In this document: one piece after another, positions 52,446 to 58,046 of the stretch | Layout: each line of letters starts with the position of its first letter | Position numbering within the stretch: position 1 is the first letter of the stretch | DNA from: Paraburkholderia sp. D15 | Lineage (GTDB): Bacteria; Pseudomonadota; Gammaproteobacteria; Burkholderiales; Burkholderiaceae | Direction: 5' to 3' | Length of the DNA: 64,000 bases | Assembly (NCBI RefSeq): GCF_029910215.1 | Contig: NZ_CP110395.1 | Span: 3,224,001-3,288,000 of the forward strand | Made by a program: the position numbers and the translations under genes | Notes under the pieces: generated by a model | Database searches by the model: none | Told to the model about the DNA's origin: nothing | Seen by the model: the letters and a program-made list of their open reading frames with translations, nothing else

Positions 52446-52545
52446 TTGCGGTTGCGGTTGCGGTTGCGGTTGCGGTTGCGGTTGCGGTTGCGGTTGCGGT
52501 TGCGGTTGCGGTTGCGGTTGCGGTTGCGGTTGCGGTTGCGGTTGC
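52446..52545. repeat. tandem hexamer repeat, 16.7 copies
   Basis: Sixteen perfect copies of TTGCGG (52446-52541) plus a partial TTGC, with no interruptions. It lies between the TraB stop (52557) and the GGDEF start (52337), inside the probable promoter/leader of the cyclase gene. A multiple of three, so open frames through it read Ala-Thr or Leu-Arg repeats; these are not real genes. Confidence 0.97.
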
Positions 52546-53388: not shown

Positions 53389-53787
53389 TCAATCGGCGGT
53401 ACGCAACGATATGCTGGTAGCGCCGACGCCTCGCCAGGCAGTCCGGACGGTGGCCAGCACGAACACGAGAAAGACGATCTGCGAAACGAACAGGTCCATC
53501 CGGATCGGATGATGTTGCGCGAACCATGCATTGTGCGCCACATCCGTCACGATGACGGCGACGCAGAGAATCAGGCCGGTTGCGGGTGCGATGAGGAGGA
53601 GTAGCGCGGTCAGCGGGTCGATGAAGAGCAGCGAGGTCCAGTAGACGCGCGTGAGCGGCGCGGCGCCGCCGTAGTCCCATGTGAGGCCGTGGGTGAGTGC
53701 GACTTGCAGATGAGTCCAGGTGGCGCCGCACAGGCAGAGCGCGTAGATCACGCGGAGGGAGAGGGAGCGGCGGTGGATGGCTTGCAT
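53389..53787 (-). CDS. small four-helix membrane protein
   Basis: A 132-residue protein with four hydrophobic segments: SLRVIYALCLCGATWTHLQVAL, TSLLFIDPLTALLLLIAPATGLILCVAVIVTD (two) and LFVSQIVFLVFVLATVRTAW. WTHLQVALTHGLTWDYGGAAPLTRVYWTSLLFIDPLTALLL looks conserved-protein-like, but I do not recognise the family. It lies 87 bases downstream of the accessory operon and could belong to it or to the host chromosome. Confidence 0.7.
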   Translation of the reverse strand: MQAIHRRSLSLRVIYALCLCGATWTHLQVALTHGLTWDYGGAAPLTRVYWTSLLFIDPLTALLLLIAPATGLILCVAVIVTDVAHNAWFAQHHPIRMDLFVSQIVFLVFVLATVRTAWRGVGATSISLRTAD

Positions 53788-53874
53788 GGCATCACATCAT
53801 AGTAAAAGAAGGCTTCGAAGTGCAGCCCCCGCACTACGCCCCCCTCGCCGCCACTCGACATCGAACGCCGCTGG

Positions 53875-54993
53875 TCAGGGATTGACCGCGACCGGGGGCG
53901 GTTTGCCTGAGTCGAATGCCTGCTGGAATGTTGGCCATAACCCCTCTCCCCACTCCTGCATCTTTGCCAGGTAAGCCATTTTGTCCGGAAAACGCGGCGC
54001 GTTCGGCGCGTGCCAATCCGATTCACGCGCGGACAGCGCCGTGCTCGCGGTGATCCCTTCAATCTCGGGATCAAACAGATACGACACCTCGAGCACACCC
54101 CATGTTTCGGCGCGCGTGAATCGTATGTCCACGAAGTCCTGAGGATAGTCGACGCCTTTCGCGGCCAGGTCGCCGCCCGCGGCCCGGTCCAATCCGGAAA
54201 TCTTCGTCGCGCGATCGGCCCACTGCTGTAAAGGCGGCGTGAAGTAATTGCTGATCAGCCAGCATGCCTGATGTCCGTAAGGTGTGACCGAGTCAAGGAC
54301 GAGGTGATTCAGGTTGGGATTGCCGGTTGTGCACCCGGTCGCCGCAGGAAAGCCCGCCCCGGGTTGTTCGCTACTATGCAGAGCGAACAGACGGATCGCG
54401 CCGACAAGCCGCTTATGTTCGATCCGTCCGAGAAAATAAGCGACGCCGGACGCACCGCGCATCCGGATACTGCTATTGGACAGCACCGCCCATTGCCCCG
54501 GCGGGAGCGGCACGTTGAATCCATCCGCGGCGATCGACTGGCGATACGTACGCCCGACGAAAGCGCGATCCAGACCGGAAGGATCGCTGCCGCCGGCTGC
54601 GTTCGGCGTCGCCATCGAAATCTGCGCAGTCACGGGCGGCTTGACCGCCGGACCCGGCGCGGCGGCTAGCGTCGCTACGCCGCTCTTGCGCCCGCTCGCC
54701 GCCTGTTTTGGCGCGGCATTGACGGGTGCCTGATCCGGGGTTGCGGCAATCCTCTTTCCGACCGGTGCCGGGTTGGATGCCGGCATTGCCTGCGCCACGA
54801 CCGCTTTTTGCTGCGACGTGTAGCTGACGGCCTCCGGCATGGGTGGCAATGGCTGAACGGCAGGCACGCGCCACTTCGGCGGGAAGCACACGACGGCGGC
54901 CGACAGCAGAACGGCCGCCGACACCGATAGCCGCCACAATGGCGCGCGCGTCCACAGGTTCTGACCATCCGTCTCGGGGAGATTCGCGCTCAT
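53875..54993 (-). CDS. single-pass membrane protein of accessory operon, third gene
   Basis: A 372-residue protein of no recognised family. A cytosolic start of about 19 residues, one membrane helix (about 20-38, WRLSVSAAVLLSAAVVCF), a Pro/Ala/Lys-rich linker to about 135, then a compact domain predicted to lie in the periplasm. Four cysteines occur, two of them close in GCTTGNPNLNH and QACWLISNYF and possibly able to form a disulfide. Its ATG overlaps the stop of the Clp-like ATPase gene (ATGA). Likely a periplasmic partner of that ATPase; its role is unknown. Confidence 0.7.
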   Translation of the reverse strand: MSANLPETDGQNLWTRAPLWRLSVSAAVLLSAAVVCFPPKWRVPAVQPLPPMPEAVSYTSQQKAVVAQAMPASNPAPVGKRIAATPDQAPVNAAPKQAASGRKSGVATLAAAPGPAVKPPVTAQISMATPNAAGGSDPSGLDRAFVGRTYRQSIAADGFNVPLPPGQWAVLSNSSIRMRGASGVAYFLGRIEHKRLVGAIRLFALHSSEQPGAGFPAATGCTTGNPNLNHLVLDSVTPYGHQACWLISNYFTPPLQQWADRATKISGLDRAAGGDLAAKGVDYPQDFVDIRFTRAETWGVLEVSYLFDPEIEGITASTALSARESDWHAPNAPRFPDKMAYLAKMQEWGEGLWPTFQQAFDSGKPPPVAVNP

Positions 54994-56243
54994 CGTTCCG
55001 GCCTCGCGACTACGCCGCCCTCCGACGACACGAGCGTGACCTTGCTATGACCCTGCTGCCGCGCATCGATCAGCGTGTCAGCCAGCGATTCTTCGACCGC
55101 GCGCACGAGATCGCGTGACGAGGCGCCGGAGCCCATACGCTGCTGGCGCCGCATCATGTCGAGCAGAATGTCCGGGTCAATGCCTTCGTCGGCGACGTCG
55201 AGACCGTAGCTCTTGATCATCGCCTCGATTTCCAGCGCGGCGACGCGCGCGATATCGAGCCCGGAAAGCGACTTGAAGACGAAAATCCGATCGAGCCGGT
55301 TCAGGACCTCGGGCGCAAAGCCCGCTTCGCGAAGCGCATTCGTGGACGACCGCCGAAGTTCATCCGCATCGTTGGCGAACGTCACGCTCAACGTCTGCAA
55401 ATCGTCCGTTGCGGCATTCGTGGTGAGTATGAAAATGGCGCGCGTGGTTGAAATTTGCCGACCATCGGATGCTTCGGTGACGAACCCGTCATTCCAGGCG
55501 GTCAGGAAGTTCTTGTGAATCTCCGGGTGCGCTTTCTCGATTTCGTCCAGCAGAACGACGGCATCGGGCGTATCGCGCAGTGCGGCCGTGAGCTTGCCGT
55601 AGCTGTTGGAGCCGACATAACCCTTGGAGGCGCCGAACAGTTGCGTCGCGGCGTGTGCACCGCTCGAAAACTGCGTCATGTCGAAATGCAGGAGACGACG
55701 CCCCAGCTCTGCCGCGAGGCATTTGGCCAGATAGGTTTTGCCGGTACCCGGAGGACCTGCCAGAATGAAAACGCCAACCGGTTTGTTGCGCTGTCTGAGC
55801 GCCAGCCTGCGCCGGATTTGCGACGCCATGTCGTCACAGACTGCGTCCTGTCCGATGACCTTGGCTTTCAGCGCATCGGCGAGTTTCTCTGCGTCGATGA
55901 CCTGCGGCTCCGGCTCCTGAGCCAGCTTCTGTTCAAGCGCGCGCCGATTCGTGAGTCTGTCAAGTGCGTCCATTAACCACCCTTCTTTCTTGTCGCCTGA
56001 TTGTTTACTTCGCTGCCGATCATGGAAAAAACCCGCGAAGGTGATAAGCCACAACACGACCGCCCCCACGAACACACCCCACGCGTAATCGTGGAGAAAA
56101 GCCGCGACGACCCCGGTGAGACGGCCGAGATAGGCGTGATCGGGACTGTGCTGCAACAGAAACTGAGCCGCCGCCACGCAAGCCATGACGACAAAAGCCA
56201 AAGGCGCAAAACGGGCCGCGATAGAGTTCAACCAACGCATCAT
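54990..56243 (-). CDS. membrane-anchored Clp/Hsp100-type AAA+ ATPase
   Basis: A 417-residue protein. Two N-terminal helices (about 12-30 and 54-73) are followed by a single AAA+ module like the second (D2) ring of ClpA/ClpB: KVIGQDAVCDDMASQIRRRL, Walker A GPPGTGKT (163-170), pore loop KGYVG with Tyr209, Walker B VVLLDEIEKAHPEI (229-242), sensor 1 TTNAA, arginine finger in PEVLNRLDRIFVF (Arg316) and a sensor-2-like GASSRDLVRAV. No N-domain, no D1 ring and no obvious ClpP-binding loop. All ATPase residues look intact, so it should remodel or unfold a substrate at the membrane. ATG 56243 overlaps the previous stop (ATGA). Confidence 0.85.
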   Translation of the reverse strand: MMRWLNSIAARFAPLAFVVMACVAAAQFLLQHSPDHAYLGRLTGVVAAFLHDYAWGVFVGAVVLWLITFAGFFHDRQRSKQSGDKKEGWLMDALDRLTNRRALEQKLAQEPEPQVIDAEKLADALKAKVIGQDAVCDDMASQIRRRLALRQRNKPVGVFILAGPPGTGKTYLAKCLAAELGRRLLHFDMTQFSSGAHAATQLFGASKGYVGSNSYGKLTAALRDTPDAVVLLDEIEKAHPEIHKNFLTAWNDGFVTEASDGRQISTTRAIFILTTNAATDDLQTLSVTFANDADELRRSSTNALREAGFAPEVLNRLDRIFVFKSLSGLDIARVAALEIEAMIKSYGLDVADEGIDPDILLDMMRRQQRMGSGASSRDLVRAVEESLADTLIDARQQGHSKVTLVSSEGGVVARPER

Positions 56244-57016
56244 TTCGTCCTGACATTCAGCGTCAGCACCTGGCCGACGCTCATTATCGGAAGCACAGCC
56301 TGAGCCGCCCCCGAAGCGAGGCCGACGGTAATGCCCCCGCCGTCGCCATCTCTCACGCCCACGATGTGGATTTGTCCATTCGCCGGAACCGGCACCGCGA
56401 ACGTGGTGCCTCGATTGGTCAACGTCACCGTTCTCGAATAGCCTGCACTTTCGATACGAACGACATCGCCGTCTTCGACGTCCGTGTCCCACAGACGCAC
56501 CCATGCCAAAGTCAGTTGCGCGGCGTTAGCAGCCGCAGCCGGCGCCGGCATCGGTGCCGGCGATGCGGCGTGGCCGGACTGGACCGCGTGGGCCGCGACG
56601 TTGGGCAATGTCGCGGCCTTGTCGTTTTCCGCAGACGCGGCAGTTGCGCTTGCGTGCGTGTCTCCGACCGACGCGTTGCCTGAAGTGACGCCGGTTTCCG
56701 CCGCGAGCCTGGCTCGCTCAGGCGGCGCAAGATGCATGGCGTCGAGCGCGGCTGCCATGTCCTTACTATCGACGGTCGATACCTGCAATTCGTGAAGCGA
56801 ATTGAACGCCGCGATGCGCGCATTTCGATCAGACGCGCTGACCGAGTCGCCTGAGTAGGCGGCAAATAAAGGATTTCCGGAGGTATAGAACGCACCCGCC
56901 GTAATCAGGCCTGCGAACGCTACTGTTGCGAGTACAGACCTGGCGAGAGTTGAGGTGCGTTTGCTCTGTTTTTCCGCCTGCGGCCCGCTTTGAACGTCTG
57001 GTTTTTCCAAGCCCAT
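56240..57016 (-). CDS. single-pass membrane protein of accessory operon, first gene
   Basis: A 258-residue protein of no recognised family. A basic cytosolic start (EKQSKRTSTLAR), one helix at about 26-46 (SVLATVAFAGLITAGAF), a low-complexity Ala/Ser/Pro region to about 165 and a beta-rich C-terminal domain (167-258) beginning LTLAWVRLWDTDVEDGDVVRIES, possibly an immunoglobulin-like sandwich. First gene of the three-gene operon; its stop overlaps the ATPase start. Upstream lie about 280 AT-rich bases with the probable promoter and no other gene. Confidence 0.7.
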   Translation of the reverse strand: MGLEKPDVQSGPQAEKQSKRTSTLARSVLATVAFAGLITAGAFYTSGNPLFAAYSGDSVSASDRNARIAAFNSLHELQVSTVDSKDMAAALDAMHLAPPERARLAAETGVTSGNASVGDTHASATAASAENDKAATLPNVAAHAVQSGHAASPAPMPAPAAAANAAQLTLAWVRLWDTDVEDGDVVRIESAGYSRTVTLTNRGTTFAVPVPANGQIHIVGVRDGDGGGITVGLASGAAQAVLPIMSVGQVLTLNVRTK

Positions 57017-57296
57017 TTGCGAACGTGACCCCGTGAATATTTTTTACTCAGGTCCGGCGATTTTCTCTAATGCTAACCGGCCGGCTCGGCCAGAGAATAA
57101 CTTGAATTGTGAAGCGTGGGAACTTGAATCGGAATCTGCAGTGGGACTTGGCGAATGGGAAGCCGGACACATCATTGAGCGCGTAATTATCGGTAATAAA
57201 AAGCGATCCAATTGTTGAATCAAAGTCACATAGTCAGATTAATTTTTCATTACGTTTTACCAATTACGAAATCAATTCAAAGGAAAATTGAAAGCA

Positions 57297-57760
57297 TTAT
57301 TTCGCAGCACTGCACAGCAGCCTGCGCAACTGTTCCGGCGCTGGATAACTCAGGGCCGGCCCGGTAATAAGATAGGTCGACTGGTTCGATGAACTCATGA
57401 CATTCTGGGCTCCGCTGACAGTGACCGTTGCTTGTCCGTCACCAAAGTGGAAAGACCATCGCATATGGCCATTGGGAGCCGGATCGATAAGAATCCCGAA
57501 CGAATCGTTTTCGCCAGCGACGGTTTGGTCAACCCGCTCGGCGCGTGGCAATATCCCGCACGTCAAGGTGCGTCCCTGCAATCCCGCATTGGTCGCTGTT
57601 TCTGCTGCCAGAAGATAGCATCCGCTGCCGATGGAATTCGGACCTTCACCCTTTTTGTCCAGTCGCAGACTGTTTTGGTGGGTAGATCGACTACGTCAGT
57701 AATGGAAACGTTAGCGGCTGACTACGCGTCAGAGCAAGATAGCAGCCGTTGAATATTCAC
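57297..57760 (-). pseudogene. decayed gene fragment upstream of the accessory operon
   Basis: A frame open to the stop at 57297 reads protein-like (DSFGILIDPAPNGHMRWSFH, LITGPALSYPAPEQLRRLLC) but has no good start. At an AAAAA run near 57670 the protein-like sequence moves to another frame (VSITDVVDLPTKTVCDWTK), which itself meets an in-frame TAG about 20 codons further upstream. This suggests a gene broken by a frameshift and a stop. Family unknown; the Cys pairs (TVCDW, GCYLL, LTCG) suggest an exported protein. Same strand as the operon. Confidence 0.45.
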
Positions 57761-57997
57761 CGCTACCTGGAGTTCACATTTTTTGGTCGCCACAGTGAAT
57801 TGAACTGCACGTTATCGACCTGTGTAAGTTCGCCGACCACGTGTGACGAACGAGAAGTAAATAGCGCCAGCCTCCTCGTTGCCGACTGCGCTCGCATGTC
57901 AATCGATATGGCGATCGGCACGATGCGTCAGCGCTCCGGAGGTGACGCCGCAGCGGGCAGTGACGATCGATTGGACGAGTGACGCTCTCGATCCAGC
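57761..57997. other. intergenic remainder of the accessory patch
   Basis: No convincing gene. Short frames on both strands lack ribosome sites. Upstream parts of the decayed gene may extend into it. Confidence 0.4.
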
Positions 57998-58034
57998 AAA
58001 AGAAAAAGCCCCGACAAGTCGGGGCTTTTTCTTT
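57998..58034. terminator. terminator beside tRNA-Cys
   Basis: Near-perfect stem AAAGAAAAAGCCCCGACA / GTCGGGGCTTTTTCTTT with almost no loop, T-rich in both directions; it ends tRNA-Cys transcription on the minus strand. Confidence 0.93.
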
Positions 58035-58046
58035 ACATCGAACTTC

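Follow-up and report, generated by a model that had tools for sequence, protein, structure and literature searches.

Three linked genes encoding a predicted membrane-anchored Clp-type ATPase and two predicted bitopic partners in Burkholderiaceae and Acetobacteraceae

Introduction

What is the task of a single-ring Clp-type ATPase that is encoded between two membrane proteins matching no family? The question is raised by three overlapping genes, here called A, B and C, in a stretch of 64,000 nucleotides (positions 3,224,001 to 3,288,000 of NZ_CP110395.1; hereafter the window) of the 8.3-Mb genome of Paraburkholderia sp. D15. All three lie on the minus strand, and their open reading frames (ORFs) confirm the positions given in a first-pass annotation made from the letters alone:

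56240-57016, minus strand: gene A, 258 amino acids, predicted bitopic with the N-terminus in and the C-terminus out, matching no family, 301 homologues
54990-56243, minus strand: gene B, 417 amino acids (416 from the second ATG), predicted membrane-anchored single-ring AAA+ ATPase of the Clp-D2 type
53875-54993, minus strand: gene C, 372 amino acids, predicted bitopic with the N-terminus in and the C-terminus out, matching no family, 137 homologues

That annotation had proposed a transmembrane remodelling complex with a cytosolic motor and periplasmic domains, a picture that fits every test run here, as far as sequences can tell. We report that the loss of A goes hand in hand with that of the catalytic residues of B, and that C stays with B. 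We give an even chance to a single membrane machine of A, B and C, in which C would dock a ClpP-independent motor whose ATPase would work through A.

Loss of A and of the active site of B

Eight catalytic and pore positions were read in 69 B proteins. The B of the window has all of them, in Walker A and Walker B, the pore tyrosine Y209, the sensor 1 asparagine, the arginine finger and the sensor 2 arginine, with the main motifs placed as follows:

55734..55757, minus strand: Walker A of B, GPPGTGKT (residues 163-170)
55611..55622, minus strand: pore loop of B, GYVG (residues 208-211), its tyrosine lost in 6/6 A-less Acetobacteraceae with a broken B
55542..55553, minus strand: Walker B of B, LLDE (residues 231-234)
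55296..55298, minus strand: arginine finger of B, R316

Where A is present, 58 of 60 B proteins are intact, the others being one with phenylalanine in place of the pore tyrosine (locus L259) and one short ORF without the sensor 2 position (L267). In six A-less Acetobacteraceae (L221, L222 and L280-L283), B has lost three to seven of the eight residues; the pore tyrosine and the threonine of Walker A are gone from every one of these six broken proteins, along with one or more residues of Walker B. Nine B proteins had been scored as A-less, three of them intact: L225, which lies at a contig start; L227, where A is present at L227:7580-8221 and had been overlooked because the B ORF was over-extended; and L171, which is weighed in the Discussion. 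Among the six genomes with a broken B, a whole-genome search with the A profile gave no match in G1351, G1309, G1287, G1222 and G1268, and in G1214 only matches at expectation values (E) of 9e-4 and 7e-3. The same search matched six of seven genomes with an intact B (G1253 in part); the seventh, G1358, gave none, and its B is the one at the contig start (L225).

On a tree of nusA, rimP and infB built from 28 of the 46 syntenic loci, the six losses need four changes in the best tree and at least three according to the strongly supported branches, and a single clade for the six A-less loci is rejected (approximately unbiased test, p-AU 2.1e-5). The sister of L283 is the intact L220, and that of L221 and L222 is L219 of G1253, in which A is split over two frames (L219:10290-11150) and all eight residues of B are intact. 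A split A with an intact B in this sister position suggests that A goes first, and A may thus decay before B.

The ratio of nonsynonymous to synonymous substitution rates (dN/dS, NG86) is 0.057 for the dead B of G1351 and G1309, at a dS of 0.29, and 0.070 for their C. Eight gene pairs at the locus, one of which is C itself, range from 0.023 to 0.147, and eight pairs of intact B from 0.005 to 0.048, so that the dead B falls within the range of the locus and slightly above the intact B pairs. The dead B of G1268 compared with the intact B of G1183 gives 0.132 at a dS of 2.8. From the low value in G1351 and G1309, at least one dead ring is under maintenance and not in mere decay.

Occurrence of the three genes

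The trio was found in Burkholderiaceae and Acetobacteraceae. Within Paraburkholderia, B occurs in 4/144 genomes (E <= 1e-45); at E <= 1e-60 it occurs in 4/299 genomes of the family, 1/399 of the order (the window's own genome only) and 2/398 of the phylum, where each of these counts includes the window's genome and the family, order and phylum sets are samples. C, sought in 59 relatives, was found only in the window's own genome. Acetobacteraceae carry B in 57/249 genomes and 24/102 genera. When genome_contigs and viral_contigs were scanned with B, ordinary Clp proteins dominated the results: among the best 80 loci of each, only L011 (PKZM01000204.1) scored as a member of the B family, and it is the same sequence as L230 (contig G1328:C40), reversed. 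Further relatives may have been missed. A mobile element was considered and rejected, since among 146 matching records none from a phage covers 80% of B and the sole plasmid match at E <= 1e-50 shares 43% identity.

Across the gene neighbourhoods of B at 64 loci, profiles built solely from database hits found C at 63 and A at 54. These first-round counts are the unbiased ones; later iterations took neighbouring ORFs into the profiles and gave A at 59/64 and C at 63/64. The recurrence of the trio, together with the numbers of homologues, indicates an association that is more than chance.

A search of the 249 Acetobacteraceae with the C profile matched all 57 B-positive genomes and 12 others. 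In four of the 12 (L280-L283), C stands at the rimP site next to a strongly diverged B; in one (L284), C lies at a contig end; the remaining seven contain stand-alone C domains only; in these seven and in the contig-end genome, the search for B returned only long frames (648-1185 amino acids) typical of ordinary Clp proteins.

In this family, nusA lies in the fetched stretch at 42/57 B loci and likewise at four loci with a dead B. At L220, the locus annotated with Pfam, the trio stands divergently beside rimP, nusA, ylxR, infB, rbfA and truB, and a transporter gene flanks it at the opposite end. Seven to eight of the loci compared share these clusters of neighbours; beyond the rimP group, recurrent clusters are few.

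The AAA+ ring of B

B is described in public records as 'AAA family ATPase', 'ClpA', 'ClpE' or 'hypothetical protein', and has 2389 homologues, which may include other Clp proteins. Pfam AAA_2 covers residues 154-319 (1.8e-34, 119.6 bits against a cut-off of 27), placing B among proteins with a Clp/Hsp100 D2-type AAA+ module. Among the Clp models and chains compared, it aligns solely to the second ring of ClpA, ClpB and ClpV, and its best match among solved structures is ClpE (1.3e-43). It remains far below the cut-offs of the full-length families: 171.8 bits against 993.15 for ClpA (TIGR02639, model 449-717 of 734 only), 163.7 against 1232.1 for ClpB (TIGR03346, model 558-848 of 853), 143.8 against 884.95 for ClpV/TssH (TIGR03345) and 19.8 against 600 for FtsH (TIGR01241). 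Torsin (PF06309) is approached more closely, at 24.1 bits for a cut-off of 27, with 27.3 for the relative P0046. The score for ClpV led us to reject a component of a type VI secretion system.

The first-pass annotation had read B as one D2-type ring with two membrane helices and a pore tyrosine, lacking the N-domain, the D1 ring and a ClpP loop; the analyses here bear this out. The helices, placed by reading the sequence and by hydropathy in homologues, are:

56151..56207, minus strand: predicted membrane helix 1 of B (about residues 13-31)
56025..56081, minus strand: predicted membrane helix 2 of B (about residues 55-73)

ClpP docks to rings of the ClpA/ClpC/ClpX type through a tripeptide loop of the form [LIVM]G[FLIV]. 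In the segment from sensor 1 to the arginine finger, neither the window's B nor 179/182 members of the family match this pattern; the other three carry VGF in REVGFAPE next to the finger, and P0020 and P0021 also have LGV earlier. Two of 184 B proteins, the dead rings of L221 and L222, were left out for want of a recognisable Walker A. Control Clp proteins have the pattern in 34 of 37 evaluable loci out of 79, although the test is rough, with the longest Walker-bearing frame per locus taken as control and the organism's own ClpA not evaluable. By its sequence, B appears to be an active ring that works independently of ClpP.

In a phylogeny of 60 AAA+ modules, a branch with 100/100 support separates 26 B-family members from 34 other Clp D2 rings, and the B profile scores 266-590 bits in the family against at most 163 in the remaining Clp proteins retrieved, which mostly have 700-900 amino acids. 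Two homologues of B, P0046 and P0117, have a C-terminal extension of about 125 residues, which in P0046 has no Pfam match of its own.

Domains of A and C

As the first-pass annotation had read them, A and C each have one hydrophobic helix, against two in B, and a predicted periplasmic domain. A charge bias fits an N-in/C-out orientation. Alignments were made of 28 of 120 listed proteins each for B and C, and larger ones of the window's A with 119 listed homologues and of the window's C with 110. The features of A and C are:

56882..56959, minus strand: membrane helix of A (residues 20-45), from the AlphaFold2 model and from hydropathy and charge bias in homologues
56696..56836, minus strand: juxtamembrane helical domain of A (residues 61-107), predicted periplasmic, from the model helices 61-72, 84-93 and 98-107 and from conserved columns
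56243..56515, minus strand: beta-sandwich domain of A (residues 168-258), predicted periplasmic
54931..54957, minus strand: juxtamembrane motif of C, LWTRAPLWR (LWxxAxxWR, residues 13-21), predicted cytosolic
54874..54930, minus strand: membrane helix of C (about residues 22-40), from the sequence and from hydropathy in homologues
53899..54570, minus strand: predicted periplasmic domain of C (about residues 142-365), with the motif GxxxPLPxGxW and C221 and C244, from invariant or nearly invariant alignment columns

Neither A nor C matches a Pfam or PADLOC model at E up to 1, and NCBIfam gives nothing for C and 0.18 at best for A. The members of the alignments have only scattered weak matches, the best being Big_5 at 5.7e-5 (1/111 C) and Dodecin at 0.0036 (1/120 A). 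An AAA-like domain is absent from the AlphaFold2 model of A and, by sequence, from C. The beta-sandwich of A weakly resembles carbohydrate-binding modules, possibly of the CBM60 type, a resemblance taken from the Foldseek list, in which absent folds prove nothing. As far as these searches reach, A and C appear to represent families that are unnamed in the libraries searched.

The tail LWxxAxxWR occurs in 62/63 C proteins beside B and in 5/5 further ones from L280-L284, beside a dead B or at a contig edge, and in 0/17 ORFs with a stand-alone C domain; the motif was defined from the alignment itself, so that these counts are descriptive. Its presence in B-linked C and absence from stand-alone C point to the tail as the part that would bind B or its membrane helices. 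The tail-less stand-alone domains (L268-L272 and L274-L279), many of which begin with a segment resembling a signal peptide, are also found as additional copies in three genomes that have B, and are clustered in L268, L269 and L270. By sequence, they would constitute an unnamed domain family of their own. At L273:8171-9553, a C domain is fused behind an N-terminal domain that has no Pfam match and that seems to resemble a periplasmic protein of the ClpP/crotonase fold. Other variants of C have two tandem C domains (P0141) or an extra N-terminal domain (the P0228 type); P0237 is a further one.

The Paraburkholderia locus

The ATGA overlap that the first-pass annotation saw at both junctions holds for B/C, where 4 nucleotides are shared. 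The A/B junction reads ATGATG, and its overlap depends on the start of B: from 56243, B has 417 residues and overlaps A by 4 nucleotides (ATGA), and from 56240 it has 416, the length and start of most homologues, and overlaps A by 1 nucleotide (TGATG). An ORF of 504 amino acids for B was rejected as an over-extension. In Burkholderiaceae, A and B overlap by 1 nucleotide and B and C by 4 at 6/6 loci; at the 57 loci of Acetobacteraceae, A and B overlap by 4 nucleotides in 34, and B and C by 4 in only 8. Scans for promoters and terminators gave counts at chance level.

The trio sits at a variable site, 53787-58046, between a tRNA-Cys gene and a gene of 132 amino acids. G128 has the trio at the same site, and four relatives without it have 2.3-2.9 kb of other DNA there instead, the ORFs of which were listed for three of the four. 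Third-position guanine-cytosine (GC) content is 0.67-0.73 in the trio against 0.81-0.87 in four neighbouring genes. The variability of the site and the lower third-position GC both suit a horizontal gain of the trio there. Upstream of A, 57297-57581 is a remnant of a small lipoprotein-like gene, with a longer relative at the same site in G128 (L205:11248-11829), and a perfect tandem repeat, (TTGCGG)16.7, lies at 52446-52545, inside or beside a coding region.

Discussion

Topology, hexamer formation, physical contacts, threading and the place of A as client are all our inference from the sequences, and the machine may be pictured as follows. B would assemble into a hexameric ring of the Clp-D2 type, anchored in the inner membrane by two helices per subunit and facing the cytosol, and would thread polypeptide without ClpP. 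C would be its constant partner: its LWxxAxxWR tail would dock to B on the cytosolic side, and its periplasmic domain would expose two conserved cysteines that probably form a disulfide. A would be the partner through which ATP hydrolysis acts: the pore of B would grip the flexible cytosolic tail of A, of about 20-25 residues, and pull, thereby moving or removing the periplasmic beta-sandwich domain. The simplest account of the losses is that B has to hydrolyse ATP and thread only when A is there, and that B and C retain another role for which ATP is not required. A may be a client or an activator of B; the client role is favoured because none of the six broken rings retains the pore tyrosine, a residue of threading.

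Several observations weigh against this reading. A ring-wide decay would likewise remove the pore tyrosine, and an operon that is dispensable could simply be decaying where A and catalysis disappear jointly. Purifying selection is measurable for only one dead pair, dS being saturated between G1214 and G1287. L171 (L171:8947-10444, on the Microvirga plasmid pMVF16-3) is an exception to the coupling of A and catalysis, with an intact B, no A detected and a C cut to 82 amino acids that comprise the N-terminal tail and the helix. The cytosolic tail of A has no conserved degron. On the side of C, the stricter motif LWx[RK]AxxWR is found in only 75/120 listed homologues, whose gene context was not seen, and some, such as P0228, carry a different tail sequence. 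The coupling would fit equally well an A that acts as activator or sensor: a periplasmic ligand bound to the beta-sandwich would signal across the membrane and switch on B, which would then act on other membrane proteins, in a way somewhat like the activation of Torsin by LAP1. We regard this activator role as possible, on the doubtful side.

The trio also has to be set against known systems. With the Clp/Hsp100 proteins (ClpA, ClpB, ClpC, ClpE and ClpV), B shares the D2 ring with its Walker A/B, GYVG, sensors and arginine finger, but it differs in its single ring, its two membrane helices, its lack of an N-domain, a D1 ring and a ClpP loop pattern, and its separate clade (100/100). Torsin with LAP1/LULL1 likewise combines a single Clp-D2-like ring with membrane-anchored partners; however, Torsin is lumenal, and A (by its model) and C (by sequence) lack an AAA-like domain. 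FtsH with HflK/HflC is an inner-membrane AAA+ machine with periplasmic partner proteins, whereas B scores far below FtsH and A and C match no family. These two are the nearest working analogues of the trio, which belongs to neither.

The FtsH-HflK/HflC precedent, together with the membrane anchor and the intact pore loop of B, could also speak for an extractor in membrane quality control that passes proteins on to FtsH or some other protease, A and C being its substrate adaptors. We consider this unlikely, since B lacks the ClpP loop pattern and a sporadic spread outside Acetobacteraceae would be odd for such a general function, although a protease gene may still lie nearby among neighbours that are mostly unannotated. 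An ATPase assembling an envelope structure that crosses the peptidoglycan is improbable in our view. ExeA-ExeB (GspA-GspB) pairs an AAA+ membrane protein with a bitopic periplasmic partner, and an AAA+ protein and bitopic periplasmic proteins in a single operon, along with the weak likeness of A to carbohydrate-binding modules, recall such a system; but B comes from a different AAA+ lineage, A and C are without a Pfam match, recurring neighbours outside the rimP group are few and the annotated ones at L220 are translation, transcription and transporter genes. A GspB-type family is absent among the 6 families matching any of 111 C members and the 16 matching any of 120 A members (E up to 0.1).

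It would surprise us greatly if the trio were a relative of Dodola or PDC-M37 that acts against phages, even though DolB and PDC-M37B are the nearest PADLOC matches of B (3.3e-21), Dodola DolB and PDC-M37B being ClpB-like ATPases in small operons, and the trio has an accessory distribution within Paraburkholderia. The match covers the shared D2 ring only (model 103-279 of 375 for DolB), a DolA-type partner is missing, and A and C match no PADLOC model. Small Acetobacteraceae genomes have the trio beside rimP-nusA-infB-rbfA-truB. With the PADLOC matches of the trio itself limited to the D2 ring and with housekeeping and transporter genes as the annotated neighbours at L220, we rejected a defence system.

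Returning to the proposed machine, no profile search assigned A or C to a known family, and conservation of the trio extends over 64 loci (C at 63, A at 54-59). The first-pass annotation knew no named system with such a composition, and none appears in the families and literature searched here. The literature search returned no title or abstract opening that describes the trio, most subscription papers being outside its reach. Within this scope, the trio is a Clp-type motor in an undescribed composition. It is a tentative further thought that it represents an unnamed class of trans-envelope AAA+ machines, in which a cytosolic Clp ring held by C would pull the tail of the bitopic A for periplasmic work, and which several lineages of Acetobacteraceae would have repeatedly converted into an ATP-independent scaffold of a dead ring and C.

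The bacterial periplasm holds no ATP, and a Clp-type motor tied to dedicated periplasmic proteins, if this is what the trio encodes, would allow ATP of the cytosol to pay for work done in the periplasm. The trio is rare in Paraburkholderia and common in Acetobacteraceae, and in the latter the repeated joint loss of A and of the active site of B yields a sharp hypothesis, namely that the ATPase may serve A.

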